A stretch of 23,688 bases of DNA, taken from positions 1 through 23,688 of the IMG/VR virus record IMGVR_UViG_3300037502_004177; one strand, written 5' to 3'. Below are positions 16,930 through 23,688 of the stretch, piece by piece (position 1 is the stretch's first letter; each line of letters starts with the position of its first letter). The stretch comes from a virus. Below the pieces are notes generated by a model. That model did no database searches. It was not told the DNA's origin and saw only the letters and a list, made by a program, of their open reading frames with translations. Position numbers and translations under genes: made by a program.

Positions 16930-17095
16930 GGTGGTATCCTATTTCATTGATTTAATAACATTTCACTGTACTCACGATTATTCGCACTAATCAGGTACAC
17001 AGGGATTATTGATCTCATTTGACATAGTTGCAAGGTCTTATTTGACACCATTCAACATTTAAGTGGGATTTTTTAGAGCTAGGTCTTATTTGAGC
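16930..17095. promoter_or_regulatory. Cox/CI divergent switch region
   Basis: A minus-strand promoter candidate has TTGCAA (17033-17028), 17 bp, and AATAAT (17010-17005), pointing to Cox. Just downstream is the dyad GATTA-N7-TAATC (16976-16992), framed by TGTAC (16967-16971) and GTACA (16995-16999), a likely operator. Towards CI, AGGTCTTATTTGA occurs twice (17033-17045 and 17081-17093), with a related ATTTGACA at 17017-17024, giving ATTTGA at 23- and 48-bp intervals. The second copy lies in the CI ribosome-site position. I found no convincing -10 for CI. Confidence 0.55.
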
Positions 17096-17737
17096 ATGAA
17101 TGAGAACGAAAAAATATTGCCGTACGAGTACCAGAAAGGTCGAGAATTCACTGATAACCTCAAAAAGGTCTTAAATTGTCGCAACCTAGAAGAGCTAAGT
17201 GAGATCTTGGGAGTACCAAAATCTACATTTACTACATGGAATGCACATGACAGAACATCGCATGAGTTAATGGTTAGGCTTCATTTAGCAAAGGGAATCC
17301 CTCTAGATGAACTTGCTTTGAGACCAGAGGATAGAAACTCTGAAACTCAAAAAGGATCGGCTAATTATCCTAGTTCGGAACGTTCGATAAATCCGCAGGC
17401 TAACTCTGTCATCATCAAAAGCTTCTGCTTAACTAATGGAAAGCTGCTAGATACAGGCGAAGTACCGTATCCAGTTCGCCGTATTAATGGCTTTGGTTTA
17501 GAGAATGCAGATCTGATTGAAATTGAAACCAACCAAAGTGTGGTATTGGTCGATAAGAAAGAGAACGACGCAATGAATGGTAATTACCTCATTGGCATCG
17601 ACGGCCGATACTCAATCAACCAGGTTCAACGCCTACCCGGCAAACTCGCTATCGCTTTCGACGGACAAACGATCGAAGTTCAGGACGGTGATATCGAGGT
17701 AATCGGTAAGGTAGTGTTAGAAACGAAACTTAAATAA
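17096..17737 (+). CDS. cI: Prophage repressor CI (P2/186/K139-like)
   Basis: The 213-residue protein has an N-terminal helix-turn-helix domain (NLEELSEILGVPKSTFTTWN, residues 30-49) of the phage CI family. A C-terminal beta-rich domain from about residue 105 ends QTIEVQDGDIEVIGKVVLE. This domain resembles the LexA/S24 dimerisation fold, but I see no SMxP serine motif or paired lysine, so self-cleavage is unlikely. It should keep the early promoter off in the lysogen. I chose ATG 17096; a GTG at 17063 would add 11 residues and cross the repeats. A run of same-strand accessory genes and int follow, probably in one transcript. Confidence 0.88.
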   Translation: MNENEKILPYEYQKGREFTDNLKKVLNCRNLEELSEILGVPKSTFTTWNAHDRTSHELMVRLHLAKGIPLDELALRPEDRNSETQKGSANYPSSERSINPQANSVIIKSFCLTNGKLLDTGEVPYPVRRINGFGLENADLIEIETNQSVVLVDKKENDAMNGNYLIGIDGRYSINQVQRLPGKLAIAFDGQTIEVQDGDIEVIGKVVLETKLK

Positions 17738-17762
17738 TAAAAATTGGCTAGGGAGAACCCAA

Positions 17763-18266
17763 ATGGCTAAAGAATGTAAGCACGTTAAGGCTTTTCGCGA
17801 AAAACACCTAAAACCAAGTGAAACGATTATCGCTACTGGTGAAGGCTACATCGGTGAAATGATGGGCTCAGGTGACAAGACCCAACACAATGGTGCTCTG
17901 ATCGTCACTAATGAGAAAGTGTATTTCTATCGAAAAGGATTTTTTGGCGAAGTTCTAGAAAATATCCCGCTTAAAAGTATTACCTCTATCGAGCGTAAAT
18001 CTACCCTAGGCCACTATACGGTTAGTCTTCATACAAGCCACGACGCTCTTACATTCAAATGCATGCAAGAAAAGGAAATTGTCCAAGCCCTTGTTGATGC
18101 TATCGAAGACGGTCGCTCCAACACTTCGAGCCAACCGAATGTATCTTCAGCCCCTGCCGAATCAGCGATTGATAAGCTAAAAAAACTGGGTGAACTCAAG
18201 GATGCTGGCGTTCTTACCGAAGAAGAATTCCAACAACAGAAAGCCAAGCTGCTAGCTGAAATCTAA
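17763..18266 (+). CDS. Bacterial PH-like domain protein with C-terminal SHOCT
   Basis: The 167-residue protein has a bacterial PH-type domain (about residues 15-115), with the typical strands GALIVTNEKVYFYRKGFFGEV and ENIPLKSITSIE. A proline/serine linker follows (118-132). A SHOCT domain ends it: IDKLKKLGELKDAGVLTEEEF with KAKLL (134-167). SHOCT modules usually mediate oligomerisation, and PH-like folds bind partners. AGGGAG precedes ATG 17763 by 8 bases in a leader shared with the following cargo genes. It has no membrane segment or signal peptide, so it is cytoplasmic. Its place right behind CI suggests a lysogenic accessory function; which one is unknown. Confidence 0.75.
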   Translation: MAKECKHVKAFREKHLKPSETIIATGEGYIGEMMGSGDKTQHNGALIVTNEKVYFYRKGFFGEVLENIPLKSITSIERKSTLGHYTVSLHTSHDALTFKCMQEKEIVQALVDAIEDGRSNTSSQPNVSSAPAESAIDKLKKLGELKDAGVLTEEEFQQQKAKLLAEI

Positions 18267-18307
18267 GTTTAAGAAAAATAAAAATATTAATTGGCTAGGG
18301 AAAAATA

Positions 18308-18775
18308 ATGAAATATGTAATTGGTCTATTTCTTGGGCTGTGCGCAGCATTCAGTTACGCGCAAGACGACATGAAAGTGATATTGGTTGGTGATGGGTTC
18401 ACTAAAAATAATCTTCCAGCAGCAACCATCTATAACTGCACTAGCGATGAACAAAGTTGCATCCAATACACTTTCAACTCCAAATCTCTATCAGAGCTTT
18501 TAAATGGTAAACAACTGACCAACAACATGAGAGATAACTTAGACCTTGAAGCCACCGCAAACATGGATGGTCAATATTTCGTTATTTCAAATAAGCACAA
18601 GACGCGTTTGGATGTAGAAGTCATCAAAAACGATAAAGAAGCTAAAAAGCTTACGCTTAGCTATAACCTTGTTCTTGTTTCATCGAAAGGCTACGACAAA
18701 CAGCTTGCACTTCATGGTAAGTCCCTAACCGTGGAAGGCGATTTTTATGACACTTTGGTTGGTATCGCCAACTGA
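18308..18775 (+). CDS. Secreted small protein downstream of CI
   Basis: The 155-residue protein starts with a clear signal peptide, MKYVIGLFLGLCAAFSYA, with a probable type I cleavage site SYA|QDD after residue 18. The cysteine in the signal lacks a lipobox, so it is not a lipoprotein. The mature part has two nearby cysteines (NCTSDEQSC), likely a disulphide in the periplasm, and beta-like segments. AGGGA stands 7 bases before ATG 18308. K139 encodes a periplasmic exclusion protein, Glo, near its repressor. This protein could fill the same role, but I see no sequence evidence of relation. Confidence 0.65.
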   Translation: MKYVIGLFLGLCAAFSYAQDDMKVILVGDGFTKNNLPAATIYNCTSDEQSCIQYTFNSKSLSELLNGKQLTNNMRDNLDLEATANMDGQYFVISNKHKTRLDVEVIKNDKEAKKLTLSYNLVLVSSKGYDKQLALHGKSLTVEGDFYDTLVGIAN

Positions 18776-18801: not shown

Positions 18802-18858
18802 TCGGAAGAAGATATTAAGGTAATTGGCCGTGTGGCGGTGACTTTAAAGAAAGATTAA
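18802..18858 (+). pseudogene. Relic of a repressor CI 3' end
   Basis: In this frame the DNA reads EEDIKVIGRVAVTLKKD and then stop, matching the end of the intact CI protein, DGDIEVIGKVVLETKLK (D, I, V, I, G and V conserved in register). It is followed by the same AT-rich tail and AATTGGYTAGG leader found after the intact cI stop. An in-frame TAG at 18799 separates it from any start, so it is not translated as a gene. It looks like a scar left when a different repressor gene plus cargo replaced the original. Confidence 0.7.
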
Positions 18859-18883
18859 TAATAAAATTGGTTAGGAGTTTGAA

Positions 18884-19576
18884 ATGGCTCATTCATGGCA
18901 ATGCCCATACTGCAATCACAATGCAACTATTGATGGAAATCACTTGAGTATTGGTCGCCACAGTTTTGACCACGGTAATAAATTCAAGGTGGCGCTCATG
19001 ATTGAAACTGAGGTGATTACTTGTCCAAACCCCAATTGCTGCGAAATTTCGATTTCTGCAATTTTGGTCAAAAAATATGCACACATAGACCAAGAGCCAG
19101 ATGCCGTACTACGCTCTTGGCAGCTTCAGCCAAATTCAACAGCGAAGACTTTTCCAGATTACATTCCAAAAGCAATCCGCTCCGACTATGAAGAAGCATG
19201 CTTAATCAGAGACCTTAGCCCGAAGTCATCGGCAACATTGGCACGCAGATGTTTACAGGGAATCTTGCGAGATTTTTGGGAAGTTAAACCTGCGCGTCTA
19301 GTAGATGAAATCAAGAGTATTAAAGACAAAATTGACCCTCTTACATGGGCAGCCATTGACGGTGTCCGTGGTATCGGGAATATCGGCGCTCATATGGAAA
19401 AAGACATTAACGTGATAGTTGATGTTGAGCCAGAAGAAGCAGCTCTGTTAATCAACCTTTTAGAAATTCTCATTAAAGAGTGGTACATCAACAGGCATGA
19501 ACGTGAACAACGTATGCAGGCCCTTATTGGTGTTGCGCAGCAAAAGCAGGAAGATCGAAAGAAAGCTACTGAGTAG
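18884..19576 (+). CDS. DUF4145-like protein with N-terminal zinc knuckle
   Basis: The 230-residue protein starts with a zinc-binding module, WQCPYCNH and TCPNPNC (C7, C10, C47, C52). A helical DUF4145-like domain follows (about 95-205): KAIRSDYEEACLIRDLSP, ATLARRCLQGILRDF, and the conserved turn VRGIGNIGAHM (R162, H170). DUF4145 proteins are often found beside restriction and defence genes. The R...H arrangement recalls HEPN RNases, but the spacing (seven residues between) is longer than the usual Rx4-6H, so activity is uncertain. AGGAG precedes ATG 18884 by 7 bases. Sixty bases separate it from the four-gene unit, so it may be part of that system or an independent cargo gene. Confidence 0.75.
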   Translation: MAHSWQCPYCNHNATIDGNHLSIGRHSFDHGNKFKVALMIETEVITCPNPNCCEISISAILVKKYAHIDQEPDAVLRSWQLQPNSTAKTFPDYIPKAIRSDYEEACLIRDLSPKSSATLARRCLQGILRDFWEVKPARLVDEIKSIKDKIDPLTWAAIDGVRGIGNIGAHMEKDINVIVDVEPEEAALLINLLEILIKEWYINRHEREQRMQALIGVAQQKQEDRKKATE

Positions 19577-19635: not shown

Positions 19636-20085
19636 GTGACTAAAAGCAAATCATCTGAGGTGTCGAAGTTAACGAAATGGCTTTGGTATACCGTAATCAT
19701 TGGGCTAATCCCAATAGGGTTACGTTTGTTCTTTTGTTCGTTTATGGAAACAGTTAAGCCACTCAACGCCGCAGACTTTATCGCTGTAGGTTTTGTACTA
19801 CACATATCCATTTTCAATGAATTGGAACATATGTCAGGCGATCAAACCTGGAAAACAATGAGTAACGCCGGGTCGATTGTCGCAATCTTTTTTTACGGAG
19901 CGCTGACGTGTTTATTATTGATGCTCGAATCGGGTGTTAAAGGTATCAATGTCGAACATTTAACCAATTCGTCTATGGTTCTCTCCGCTTGTTCATTTAT
20001 ACTCTGCTTTGTCATTTTCTTTAGACTCAGTTCAAAAGCAAAATCTGAACAGCACGAGCAAACAGATGGAGAAGTTACATGTTGA
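19636..20085 (+). CDS. Four-helix membrane protein, first gene of cargo unit
   Basis: The 149-residue protein has four predicted membrane segments, about residues 15-36, 44-61, 78-98 and 113-131, with short loops and a charged C-terminal tail in the cytoplasm or periplasm. No family is recognised. It starts at GTG 19636 with AAGGGA six bases upstream. A possible weak promoter (TTGGCT and GATAGT around 19578-19606) lies in the gap before it. Its end overlaps the next small gene by 7 bp. As the membrane member of a unit with a KAP NTPase, it may be the effector or anchor of an exclusion system; this is inference. Confidence 0.7.
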   Translation: MTKSKSSEVSKLTKWLWYTVIIGLIPIGLRLFFCSFMETVKPLNAADFIAVGFVLHISIFNELEHMSGDQTWKTMSNAGSIVAIFFYGALTCLLLMLESGVKGINVEHLTNSSMVLSACSFILCFVIFFRLSSKAKSEQHEQTDGEVTC

Positions 20086-20261
20086 GTATCCTTATCAATG
20101 CAATCGGCATCATCGCGGTAATATTGACTGTCACATTTTCCGTTTGGACATTTATCGATACCAAACGCAAATACTCTATCGACGCTTTTAACGAATCTAA
20201 AAAAGAGCGCTTATCTGCTGCGCTAAAACGGCATAAAGATAAAACTAGGCTAGGAAAATGA
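20079..20261 (+). CDS. Single-helix membrane micro-protein (60 aa)
   Basis: The 60-residue protein has an N-terminal membrane helix (about residues 3-25, NAIGIIAVILTVTFSVWTF) followed by a strongly basic tail with KRKYSIDAF and KKERLSAALKRHKDK. Its ATG lies inside the end of the four-helix protein gene (7-bp overlap), and its stop overlaps the next start (ATGA), so translation of all three is coupled. Small membrane proteins of this kind often partner larger membrane proteins. It has no family I know. The coupling and the conservation of frame make it a real gene rather than chance. Confidence 0.7.
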   Translation: MLSILINAIGIIAVILTVTFSVWTFIDTKRKYSIDAFNESKKERLSAALKRHKDKTRLGK

Positions 20262-21202
20262 TTAAAAACTTTATCTATTTGGATGAACCAAAACTCTATT
20301 CTTTCTCCTCTCAACTCTTCGAAGGCGTTACCGAATACGTCCTCAACGAACATCATGTTGAACACACCGATCAGCACACACAAAAAGGTAAACTAGCCTC
20401 TGGAAAAATCATTGCGGATGTTATTAGAGAAACATCCTCTTCAACAACAAAGAAATTCCTTCACGATCACTCATTCAACCTGTTTCAAAAACGATTAGAA
20501 GAAGAAAGCAAGCTTCTTGACATAAATTCACTGGCCTCTACAGAGGATATCCTCTCCTCAATTTCCGATTATTCCTTTGTCAAAATCAAGGCTCAAATGC
20601 TGGTCGCGGATTCGCAAGAAGTACTAAATATCTATCGAAACTTTAATCGCATTGGTGAGAATATAATCATCTCCCAGATGCAAACTGAGTTAACAATACT
20701 TGAGCAAAAGCATTTAAGTTCAAACGTTAAAGACAAAGACTCTGCGGTGTCTAAAGAGTTTTTCAAAAACCATAACATCGAAAAACAAGCGCTTGAATCC
20801 AACTTAAGACAGCCTAAGTTGTTTCAGGAGTCTCTTATTGAGTTGCTTGAATTTGGCCAAAATGGTGCTCTTCAATTTCATCAGTTATTGCACGATACTC
20901 TTTTCTCATCGTATCTAGACCGAGACCATCTAAGAGAGCCTTTAAATTCAATTATCAAAAAGTACTCAAGGCTGACACAAAGAGAGTTTGTTGTACTTGG
21001 TGTCATCAGCCACAAGTGCTCTGATGATCCTTTCCAAGAAAAACACCCCTTAGCTCAAGTTACTTCATCTGATGATGTTGGTGATATGAAGTCTAAAATG
21101 AGAGCTATTTCGTCTTCGATGATAGGTGTCAGCAAATTTACCTATGGCTTGGAGCACAACGAAATCATAATCGAACCAGTGGCGATTTATACCGAGCTAT
21201 AG
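20258..21202 (+). CDS. DUF6414-like protein of the cargo unit
   Basis: The 314-residue protein begins MIKNFIYLDEPKLYSFSSQL followed by FEGVTEYV. This YLD-x-L-Y-S-x-x-SQL opening is the pattern I associate with DUF6414 proteins. The centre is helical and charged (residues about 95-190), and the end is beta-like with HNEIIIEPVAIY. No catalytic motif or membrane segment is evident. TAGGAAA precedes the ATGA-coupled start. It stands between the two membrane proteins and the KAP NTPase, so it could bridge sensor and effector. The family name is from memory and the function is unknown. Confidence 0.6.
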   Translation: MIKNFIYLDEPKLYSFSSQLFEGVTEYVLNEHHVEHTDQHTQKGKLASGKIIADVIRETSSSTTKKFLHDHSFNLFQKRLEEESKLLDINSLASTEDILSSISDYSFVKIKAQMLVADSQEVLNIYRNFNRIGENIIISQMQTELTILEQKHLSSNVKDKDSAVSKEFFKNHNIEKQALESNLRQPKLFQESLIELLEFGQNGALQFHQLLHDTLFSSYLDRDHLREPLNSIIKKYSRLTQREFVVLGVISHKCSDDPFQEKHPLAQVTSSDDVGDMKSKMRAISSSMIGVSKFTYGLEHNEIIIEPVAIYTEL

Positions 21203-21236
21203 AAAGCTGCATGCGTAACACATTAAAGGCCGTACT

Positions 21237-22679
21237 ATGTCTAACATCCATGAAGTCCCATCAGACATAATTTTCGAGAAATTTCCAGTCATCGATCGTA
21301 GGTCTTATGCCGAACATCTAACCGACTTCCTCAACGAAAAAGCTGAAGATGGTTACGTTCTTAACCTCAATGCTGAATGGGGAGCGGGTAAAACTACTTT
21401 CCTCCAGTGCTGGTATAACGAGCTGAAAGAAAAACACCCTGTTGTTTACTTTGATGCATGGAAGTCTGATTTTACTCATGACGCTATGTTAGCGTTACTT
21501 GAGGCTTTTCATTCACAGCTGATGAGTGCGATTACAGAGAACAAAGACCTACTAAACAAACTAATGGAAGGTGGCAAACATTTTGCCAAAAATACTTCAT
21601 GGAAGTTAATCCTTGGCTTCGTAAAACGCCAAGGGGGAATGGAAGCTGATGATTCACTGTTTTCAGACATATCAGATGGACTAAAAGATCTTGGTCTAGA
21701 AACTAGCGATTTAACCGATTCACTTAAAGACACTTTCTCCTCCATGCTTGAACAAAAGCAAAAGGTAGAAGGCATTAATGACTTTAAACAGACTCTTGTT
21801 GAATTAAGTGATGCATATATAAAGGTTCACAATGATAAATCTACCCCAATCTATGTCCTGATTGATGAACTTGACCGCTGCAGACCGACTTACGCTATAG
21901 AAGTAATTGAATCAGTTAAGCATTTCTTTAATACAAAAAACTTTGTTTTTGTGCTGGCTACGGATACCGATCAGTTACAACATTCAATTAGAGCTGTATA
22001 TGGTGAAGGGTTTGACTCAACTAGCTATTTGAGTCGTTTTTTTGATAGAAGCGCTACACTTTCAGCTCCGACGTTAAAGCAGTTCATTGAAATTGAACTG
22101 ACGTCTATAGTTGGTCCTATACCCGGAAAATACGAACATTTTGAACTTATCTCTCATATCATTACATGGCATGGTATTACATCGTTACGCGAAGTAAAAA
22201 AAATACTCAATGATATTGAAGTAGCATCCTCACAAAAGAAATCTTATAGAGTGCTACCTCTCGTTGTTCTCTCTATTCTCCGTCATCGTTATCCAGAGTT
22301 TTACAAAGAACTATATGCTCGGCACGATTCACCATACAATTCTCCAAACTCTCATAGTAAAGATAAAATAAATCAGTCTAGTATTGTTCCGCATTTCCAA
22401 TTAACTAAACACTCTTCAGGAAAAGTTTCTGTAAATCATATTTTGTATCAACTATCTAGAAACATTAAAACAAATGCAGATATTAACGATATTACCTACA
22501 TAAATTCGTATATAAGTGCTGAAATTAACCCCTCACTAACAGGAGGTAAAGTCGTAAACATTATTGAAGCATTTTCACATATTTACAGAACCCACTTAGA
22601 ATCCGACGAACATGCAGATAGAAACGACTACTTTTCTCTCTTAAATTTTGCAGGTTATATGACCGATGTCAGTTCGTAA
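21237..22679 (+). CDS. KAP-family P-loop NTPase
   Basis: The 480-residue protein is a KAP-type P-loop NTPase. Walker A is AEWGAGKTTF (K52, T53). The segment VVYFDAWKSDF follows (69-79). Walker B is YVLIDELDRC (D210, E211) with the family's downstream RPTYAIEVIESVKHFF, then VFVLATDTDQL and SYLSRFFDRS. Many KAP proteins have membrane helices inserted in the domain; this one has none, but separate membrane proteins are encoded just upstream. KAP proteins include PifA, which blocks T7 growth on F-carrying cells. AAAGG precedes ATG 21237. The gene's last 14 bp overlap the integrase start. The whole is AT-rich compared with the head genes, consistent with transfer. Confidence 0.9.
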   Translation: MSNIHEVPSDIIFEKFPVIDRRSYAEHLTDFLNEKAEDGYVLNLNAEWGAGKTTFLQCWYNELKEKHPVVYFDAWKSDFTHDAMLALLEAFHSQLMSAITENKDLLNKLMEGGKHFAKNTSWKLILGFVKRQGGMEADDSLFSDISDGLKDLGLETSDLTDSLKDTFSSMLEQKQKVEGINDFKQTLVELSDAYIKVHNDKSTPIYVLIDELDRCRPTYAIEVIESVKHFFNTKNFVFVLATDTDQLQHSIRAVYGEGFDSTSYLSRFFDRSATLSAPTLKQFIEIELTSIVGPIPGKYEHFELISHIITWHGITSLREVKKILNDIEVASSQKKSYRVLPLVVLSILRHRYPEFYKELYARHDSPYNSPNSHSKDKINQSSIVPHFQLTKHSSGKVSVNHILYQLSRNIKTNADINDITYINSYISAEINPSLTGGKVVNIIEAFSHIYRTHLESDEHADRNDYFSLLNFAGYMTDVSS

Positions 22680-23688
22680 CCTCAAAGATGGTAGCAAAAA
22701 GCCTTGGCTCTGTGAGTGCTACCCACATGGCCGATCGGGTAAACGCATTCGCAAACGCTTTGCTACTAAAGGTGAAGCAGTTTCCTTTGAACAATTCACC
22801 ATGCGCGAAGTTAACGACAAGCCCTGGCTTGGTGACAAACCCGATCACCGCCGTTTGTCTGAGTTAGTTGACTTGTGGTTTAAGCTACATGGCAAGAATC
22901 TCAAGTCCGGTGATCACACTCGCCTACGTCTAGAAAACATGGTTTTAGATTTAAACAACCCGATTGCTTCACACCTTAACTCAAAGCAACTCGCGACTTA
23001 TCGCTCTAGTCGTTCCAACAAAGGTCGAGGCCAGCAACACAAAGAACTTTCCATCGCTTCGAATAATGTGGACTTTGGATTGCTAAAGGCGTTGTTCAAT
23101 AAGTTGATAAAGCTTGGAGAGTGGAAGCTACCTAATCCGGTTGATGGGATTGAGGCGATTAAAAAGCCGGAATCTGAACTCGCTTTCCTGACCGAACAAG
23201 AGATTCGTCACTTGTTTGAAGTGGTTCAACAGAGCCCGATTGGTGATGAGCTGACGAAGATATATAAAGTGTGCCTGGCGACTGGGGCACGTATCAGGGA
23301 AGCAATTTATCTGAAGGGTTCTAACCTGACGAAATACCGCATTACCTACAACAACACCAAAAGTAAACGGAACAGAACGGTTCCGATCTCTGAAGAGTTG
23401 TACAACCAAATCTATAAACCAACGAATGACCGACTTTTCACTTGCGGTTACGGCGTGGCGTACAAATGGTTAACTAAAGCCCTTCCCCACTTACCAGAAG
23501 GACAAGCAACTCACGTTTTACGTCATACCTTCGCGAGTCACTTCATGACTAATGGCGGCAACATTCTTGTACTGAAGGAAATCCTCGGTCATCAACATAT
23601 CGATCACACGATGATTTACGCCCACTTTTCACCAAACCATTTGAGTGATGCGGTAAGGTTTAATCCGCTTACGGCTCTCAAAATCTAG
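22666..23688 (+). CDS. int: Tyrosine integrase (HP1/K139-like)
   Basis: The 340-residue protein is a tyrosine recombinase of the HP1 integrase type. It starts MSVRNLKDGSKKPWLCECYP, with an arm-binding and a core-binding domain (about 1-165). The catalytic domain carries R209 (ATGARIREA), K232 (NTKSKRN), H283 and R286 (THVLRHTFA), H309 (LGHQHI) and the nucleophile Y318 (MIYAHF). The set is complete, so it should be active. It joins the phage attP to the host attB, with Cox directing excision. ATG 22666 lies within the KAP gene, so int is read with the cargo. Its TAG stop is the last codon of the window, and the attachment site must lie beyond. Confidence 0.97.
   Translation: MSVRNLKDGSKKPWLCECYPHGRSGKRIRKRFATKGEAVSFEQFTMREVNDKPWLGDKPDHRRLSELVDLWFKLHGKNLKSGDHTRLRLENMVLDLNNPIASHLNSKQLATYRSSRSNKGRGQQHKELSIASNNVDFGLLKALFNKLIKLGEWKLPNPVDGIEAIKKPESELAFLTEQEIRHLFEVVQQSPIGDELTKIYKVCLATGARIREAIYLKGSNLTKYRITYNNTKSKRNRTVPISEELYNQIYKPTNDRLFTCGYGVAYKWLTKALPHLPEGQATHVLRHTFASHFMTNGGNILVLKEILGHQHIDHTMIYAHFSPNHLSDAVRFNPLTALKI

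Follow-up and report, generated by a model that had tools for sequence, protein, structure and literature searches.

In phage lambda, the arrangement cI-rexA-rexB places a 279-aa soluble protein (RexA) and a 144-aa protein with four transmembrane (TM) helices (RexB) beside the repressor gene. Unrelated pairs of a soluble and a 4-TM protein occur in other prophages, with a Rex-like action proposed or shown; in Sbash (gp30/gp31), CarolAnn (gp44/gp43) and Butters (gp30/gp31), they lie beside the repressor and their 4-TM protein measures about 145 aa (PMC7542560). Additionally, Rousset et al. (2022) described an antiviral hotspot in Vibrionaceae, which occupies the cI-int interval of a K139-like relative of P2 (PMC9122126).

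In this work, we analysed a window of 23,688 nucleotides, i.e. the whole stretch of DNA under study (IMG/VR record IMGVR_UViG_3300037502_004177), which is a Vibrio prophage carrying a three-gene unit, TM4-TM1-DUF6414 (19636-21202). The window shares slot, phage type and a mixed cargo including known defence families with the hotspot of Rousset et al. The location itself is thus already known as a published antiviral hotspot; the text of that article does not name the three-gene unit (PMC9122126).

The likeness of the unit to RexAB is architectural only. Only in the Vibrionaceae phage copies do a 4-TM protein and a soluble protein adjoin cI and share its orientation, and the absence of homology between TM4 and RexB (hhalign probability 1.8%; HMM 0.2 bits) and between DUF6414 and RexA (hhalign probability 0.3%; HMM -1.1 bits) rules out RexAB membership. 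By analogy, the unit may act in a Rex-like manner, yet it is not a member of the Rex family. It differs from Rex and the Rex-like pairs by an extra single-TM protein, by the order TM4-TM1-soluble protein and by an occurrence far beyond phages. Kiwa also combines a 4-TM protein (KwaA) with a second protein (KwaB); neither TM4 nor DUF6414 had a KwaA or KwaB match at E 0.1 in PADLOC v2, which includes Kiwa models, and Kiwa membership is thus not supported. Finally, the likeness to PDC-S20, a PADLOC candidate for which no proven function was found, concerns the neighbouring KAP gene only.

Gene content of the cI-int slot

The window phage, in which the gene A protein is present, belongs to the K139/kappa/PV94 group of P2 relatives. 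The main genes of the slot and its two borders are as follows:

17063..17737, + strand: CI repressor (PF07022, 2.8e-17; PF16452, 1.4e-10), upstream border of the hotspot
18884..19576, + strand: DUF4145 protein (PF13643, 1.3e-8; PADLOC PD-T7-4, 1.8e-12), a further cargo gene of the cI-int slot
19636..20085, + strand: TM4, first gene of the unit, 149 aa, four predicted TM helices, GTG start, no Pfam family
20079..20261, + strand: TM1, 60 aa, one TM helix (4-22), basic tail
20258..21202, + strand: DUF6414 (PF19952) protein, 314 aa, soluble, proposed trigger or sensor
21237..22679, + strand: KAP P-loop NTPase, 480 aa, PDC-S20 type, separate cargo outside the three-gene unit
22666..23688, + strand: tyrosine integrase, int (PF00589, 6e-19; PF24624, 8.5e-29), downstream border of the hotspot

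The slot also holds a protein with bacterial PH and SHOCT domains (17763-18266) and a second, small one that probably has a signal peptide (18308-18775); an 88% identical copy of the latter was found in a related Vibrio phage (L002).

A preliminary description of the locus had reported four same-strand genes with overlaps of 7 bp (TM4/TM1) and 4 bp (TM1/DUF6414) and a gap of 34 bp (DUF6414-KAP). The ORF coordinates confirm this arrangement, and they add a 14-bp overlap between KAP and int that had gone unmentioned. The membrane topology it gave was borne out by hydropathy, i.e. four TM segments in TM4 (19-37, 42-63, 79-97 and 113-131), one in TM1 (4-22) and none in the DUF6414 protein or in KAP, which has no membrane insertion. 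The position between cI and int, in cI orientation, also stood, and corresponds to the variable slot of a K139-like P2 relative published as a defence hotspot (PMC9122126). No terminator-like site was detected on the + strand from the cI stop to the inside of the KAP gene; this stretch is compatible with read-through from cI, without demonstrating it. Promoter predictions at the locus were no better than chance.

The DUF6414-like protein proved to be a full-length member of PF19952 (2.1e-20; 74.1 bits against a gathering cut-off of 25; profile positions 1-283 of 283) in which the family-wide N-terminal motif is present. For TM4, the family alignment revealed sixteen invariant positions (K14, W15, T19, G23, P26, R30, G52, H56, S58, N61, E62, E64, W72, K73, N77 and S120). 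PADLOC gave no convincing match for TM4, TM1 or DUF6414, no component matched a characterised defence family with confidence, and none of the papers searched mentions DUF6414. The three-gene family appears undescribed in PADLOC 2023, Pfam, PHROGs, NCBIfam and the literature searched. Assignments of TM4 to SLATT-type effectors (best PADLOC match 0.0015, in 5 of 30 members) or to Pfam DUF2178 (6e-4, in 3 of 30 members) were rejected, these matches being weak.

Linkage and distribution of TM4, TM1 and DUF6414

Loci were collected by similarity to the window's DUF6414 subfamily. The genome scan yielded 30 loci, and in 27 of them TM4 and TM1 precede DUF6414 in unchanged order. After removal of duplicates and addition of four further Vibrionaceae loci, 41 distinct loci were obtained; 38 of them carry all three genes, in constant order and strand, a figure that applies to this subfamily and not to PF19952 as a whole. 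Such a recurrence is far beyond chance. In one exception (L041), TM4 and TM1 were not seen; the other two, both from Poribacteria, carry upstream of DUF6414 a gene for a DUF2321-DpnII/MboI-type nuclease instead (L042:6777-7595 and L047:3490-4254). Carriers of the complete unit include K139/P2-type Vibrio phages, one filamentous phage and chromosomes spanning several phyla, and the short gene overlaps within the unit are mostly conserved across loci.

Scans with the separate alignments converged on the same loci. Among viral contigs, the DUF6414 and TM4 alignments matched an identical set of nine. In 218 Vibrionaceae genomes, DUF6414 exceeded the cut-off in eight and TM4 occurred in seven, with DUF6414 adjoining in all seven; the eighth DUF6414 (L056) is divergent and stands alone. 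In 369 Gammaproteobacteria, DUF6414 exceeded the cut-off in three; TM4 was found in one, adjoining DUF6414, and the other two DUF6414 genes are of a divergent type without TM4. TM4 and TM1 accompany only the DUF6414 subfamily with SSQ-FEG-TEY, divergent members occurring alone or after an EcsC-like protein. For example, a divergent DUF6414 lies downstream of an EcsC-family membrane-associated protein at L096:724-1389. No DUF6414 relative of this type was found in plasmids at E 0.001; one phage record has such a relative.

The identity matrices of TM4, TM1 and DUF6414 over 23 loci correlate at 0.57-0.68, a level reached by none of 1000 permutations. As descent in one block would give the same signal, this correlation indicates co-inheritance and not physical contact. 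TM4-TM1-DUF6414 is a discrete, co-inherited and horizontally transferred module, passed on as a single piece among unrelated bacteria and viruses.

Seven related Vibrio phages carry the unit downstream of cI, and ahead of int wherever the contig reaches int; the gene that follows DUF6414 varies as follows:

L002: Schlafen-AlbA protein
L003: int directly
L004: KAP
L005: AAA_21 ATPase
L007: int directly
L008: 226-aa protein
L009: 571-aa protein

The Vibrio cyclitrophicus phage PQ189350 naturally carries the unit without KAP. Outside tailed phages, an inovirus copy from Nitrosomonas marina (L006/L048) has the unit beside Zot and G2P genes.

The KAP gene

The protein encoded downstream of DUF6414 matches KAP_NTPase (PF07693, 2.6e-44). 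As previously noted, both of its Walker motifs are intact, with AEWGAGKT at residue 46 for Walker A and YVLIDELDRC near residue 205 for Walker B. Its best classification is PDC-S20, a single-gene candidate of PADLOC (2.8e-89; residues 5-454, profile positions 8-447 of 464), making it an independent candidate defence gene of this type. Neither a full-length PifA-type protein (5.9e-20 over positions 32-361 of a 720-position model, far below PDC-S20) nor QatA of QatABCD (71.3 bits against an equivalog cut-off of 600) is supported.

The preliminary description had grouped the four genes into one system in which KAP senses, DUF6414 adapts and TM4/TM1 execute. In its favour, four distinct Vibrionaceae loci (the window, L026, L027 and L036) have KAP after DUF6414, and these four KAPs fall within one supported clade of eight. 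Within that clade, however, they are interleaved with unlinked members, and 37 of the 41 loci are devoid of KAP. KAP was found ahead of a K139-type integrase in L070 and after a different cI-like gene in L069, the unit being absent from both. More broadly, the PDC-S20 model matched in 47 of 218 Vibrionaceae genomes, only two copies adjoining DUF6414, and 28 of 30 inspected PDC-S20 loci had no DUF6414 nearby. Since KAP occurs mostly apart from the unit, it is not a subunit but separate cargo and a frequent occupant of such slots; a four-gene KAP system is accordingly very improbable, and the role of sensor proposed for KAP falls with it. Of the four-gene proposal, the conserved three-gene part holds (38/41 loci) and the membership of KAP (4/41) does not. 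A search for the same four families in other genomes had been suggested as a check: three do co-occur, in some cases near defence genes, and the fourth, KAP, is independent of them, which for that gene is the outcome named in advance as refuting the proposal. Nor can TM4 and TM1 be the split-off membrane part of KAP, because their occurrence goes with that of DUF6414, not with that of KAP. The limits of the system are corrected in consequence, KAP, the sole recognisable enzyme there, falling outside the unit.

Possible function of the three-gene unit

Several genes near the unit or in equivalent slots belong to known defence families. In relatives of the cI-int slot, we found homologues of PD-Lambda-1 (L024, 3e-119) and PD-T4-4_A (L060, 3.6e-107). 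In the window, and there only, a distant PD-T7-4 relative (the DUF4145 protein) lies beside the unit, ending 59 bp upstream of TM4. Outside Vibrio, the unit starts 43 bp after Shango sngABC in L046, lies about 2 kb downstream of type I-F cas8/5f-cas7f-cas6f in L021 (L021:1759-8915), and is found near type IIG/ISP restriction enzymes (L040 and L050) and near PDC-M55C (L030). The fused Cas8/5f pattern of L021 is known from Tn7-like CRISPR transposons. About half of the copies on chromosomes are flanked by housekeeping genes, outside defence islands. As raw observations, uncorrected for a base rate, the defence neighbours would point to a defence role through guilt by association.

The DUF6414 protein itself evolves unevenly. 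Between the window and L007, identity reaches 72% for TM4, 75% for TM1 and 84% for DUF6414 residues 1-80, against 38% for residues 81 to the end; the N-terminal part is conserved as much as TM4 and TM1, or more, and the remainder diverges faster. This contrast suggests a constant N-terminal part that would meet the membrane proteins and a variable C-terminal part that would serve in sensing. An AF2 model built from 28 sequences was of fair quality (pLDDT 79, pTM 0.70), an earlier one from 9 sequences being poor (pLDDT 51). Foldseek searches with the DUF6414 model gave nothing significant in PDB or BFVD; OB-fold proteins (SSB, PriB, RPA and tRNA-synthetase OB domains) made up most of the top 50 PDB matches, with a best E of 0.5, which is no more than a hint of a barrel that binds nucleic acids or ligands. 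At the sequence level, DUF6414, TM4 and KAP had no match in the PDB.

We read the unit as a membrane-acting exclusion or abortive-infection module against superinfecting phages, with DUF6414 as trigger. This reading is based on the linkage of the three genes, their mobility, their place in the hotspot, the recurrence of defence genes nearby and the difference in rate between the two parts of DUF6414. We give it a probability of roughly 0.55; a function in defence, the roles of sensor and effector, permeabilisation of the membrane and transcription in the lysogen are inferred. The unit would be expressed along with cI in the lysogen, and TM4 and TM1 would form an inner-membrane complex that DUF6414 keeps silent or recruits. 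With its conserved N-terminus, DUF6414 would touch the two membrane proteins, and with its faster-changing C-terminal region it would detect a phage product, after which TM4/TM1 would permeabilise the membrane and the infection would abort, as in lambda RexAB. More tentatively, the unit could represent an anti-phage system so far undescribed, whose sensor, DUF6414, would have interchangeable partners, namely TM4/TM1 in most lineages, the DUF2321-DpnII/MboI-type nuclease in Poribacteria and, elsewhere, a membrane protein of the EcsC type. Its carriers would be tailed and filamentous phages and chromosomes of several phyla.

Chromosomal copies isolated amid housekeeping genes, as in Methylobacter (alaS/lysC), Psychrobacter, Shewanella and Piscirickettsiaceae, would also suit a module with a general role in the membrane or in stress homeostasis, which phages and other mobile elements would bring along as a means of lysogenic conversion and not of defence. 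This is unlikely given the patchy distribution of DUF6414 (eight of the 218 Vibrionaceae and three of the 369 Gammaproteobacteria exceed the cut-off), the presence of the unit in both tailed and filamentous phages and its repeated adjacency to unrelated defence systems. The linkage evidence also serves a superinfection exclusion acting at DNA entry without cell death, in which TM4/TM1 would block genome injection and DUF6414 would help in assembly or regulation; prophage exclusion genes typically adjoin the immunity region and encode small membrane proteins. The soluble partner, with its 314 aa and its variable C-terminal portion, nevertheless seems to exceed the needs of known injection blockers, and chromosomal, multi-phylum occurrence is unusual for phage-specific exclusion, which makes this alternative quite improbable.

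The translational coupling of small membrane proteins to a soluble partner also recalls a toxin-antitoxin-like addiction module, in which TM1 or TM4 would be toxic to the membrane and DUF6414 would neutralise them. In seven loci (L025, L036, L045, L046, L048, L049 and L050), however, the DUF6414 gene is broken by a stop or frameshift and TM1 and TM4 are intact, the opposite of what an antitoxin predicts, and we regard such a module as highly unlikely. These broken copies could be an effect of gene length, or could reflect selection against an active trigger. Homopolymer slippage was dismissed as their general source, fitting at most one or two loci; the Nitrosomonas marina copy (L048) has its frameshift close to ten consecutive A.

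If the membrane-acting module is indeed a defence system, it would achieve a Rex-like logic from unrelated parts over a wide host range, and would provide a role for DUF6414, a family so far without one. It would also offer a compact set of three genes directly testable by plating.

Finally, partial copies of the cI 3' end were observed after cargo genes of the slot, at 17683-17757, 18280-18304 and 18804-18866 in the window and at L003:5255-5398. Those of the window show 75-84% identity over 21-25 bases and are singly short, near chance level; that of L003 encodes a 47-aa CI tail. Together they look as if the 3' end of cI were the place where cargo is inserted or swapped.
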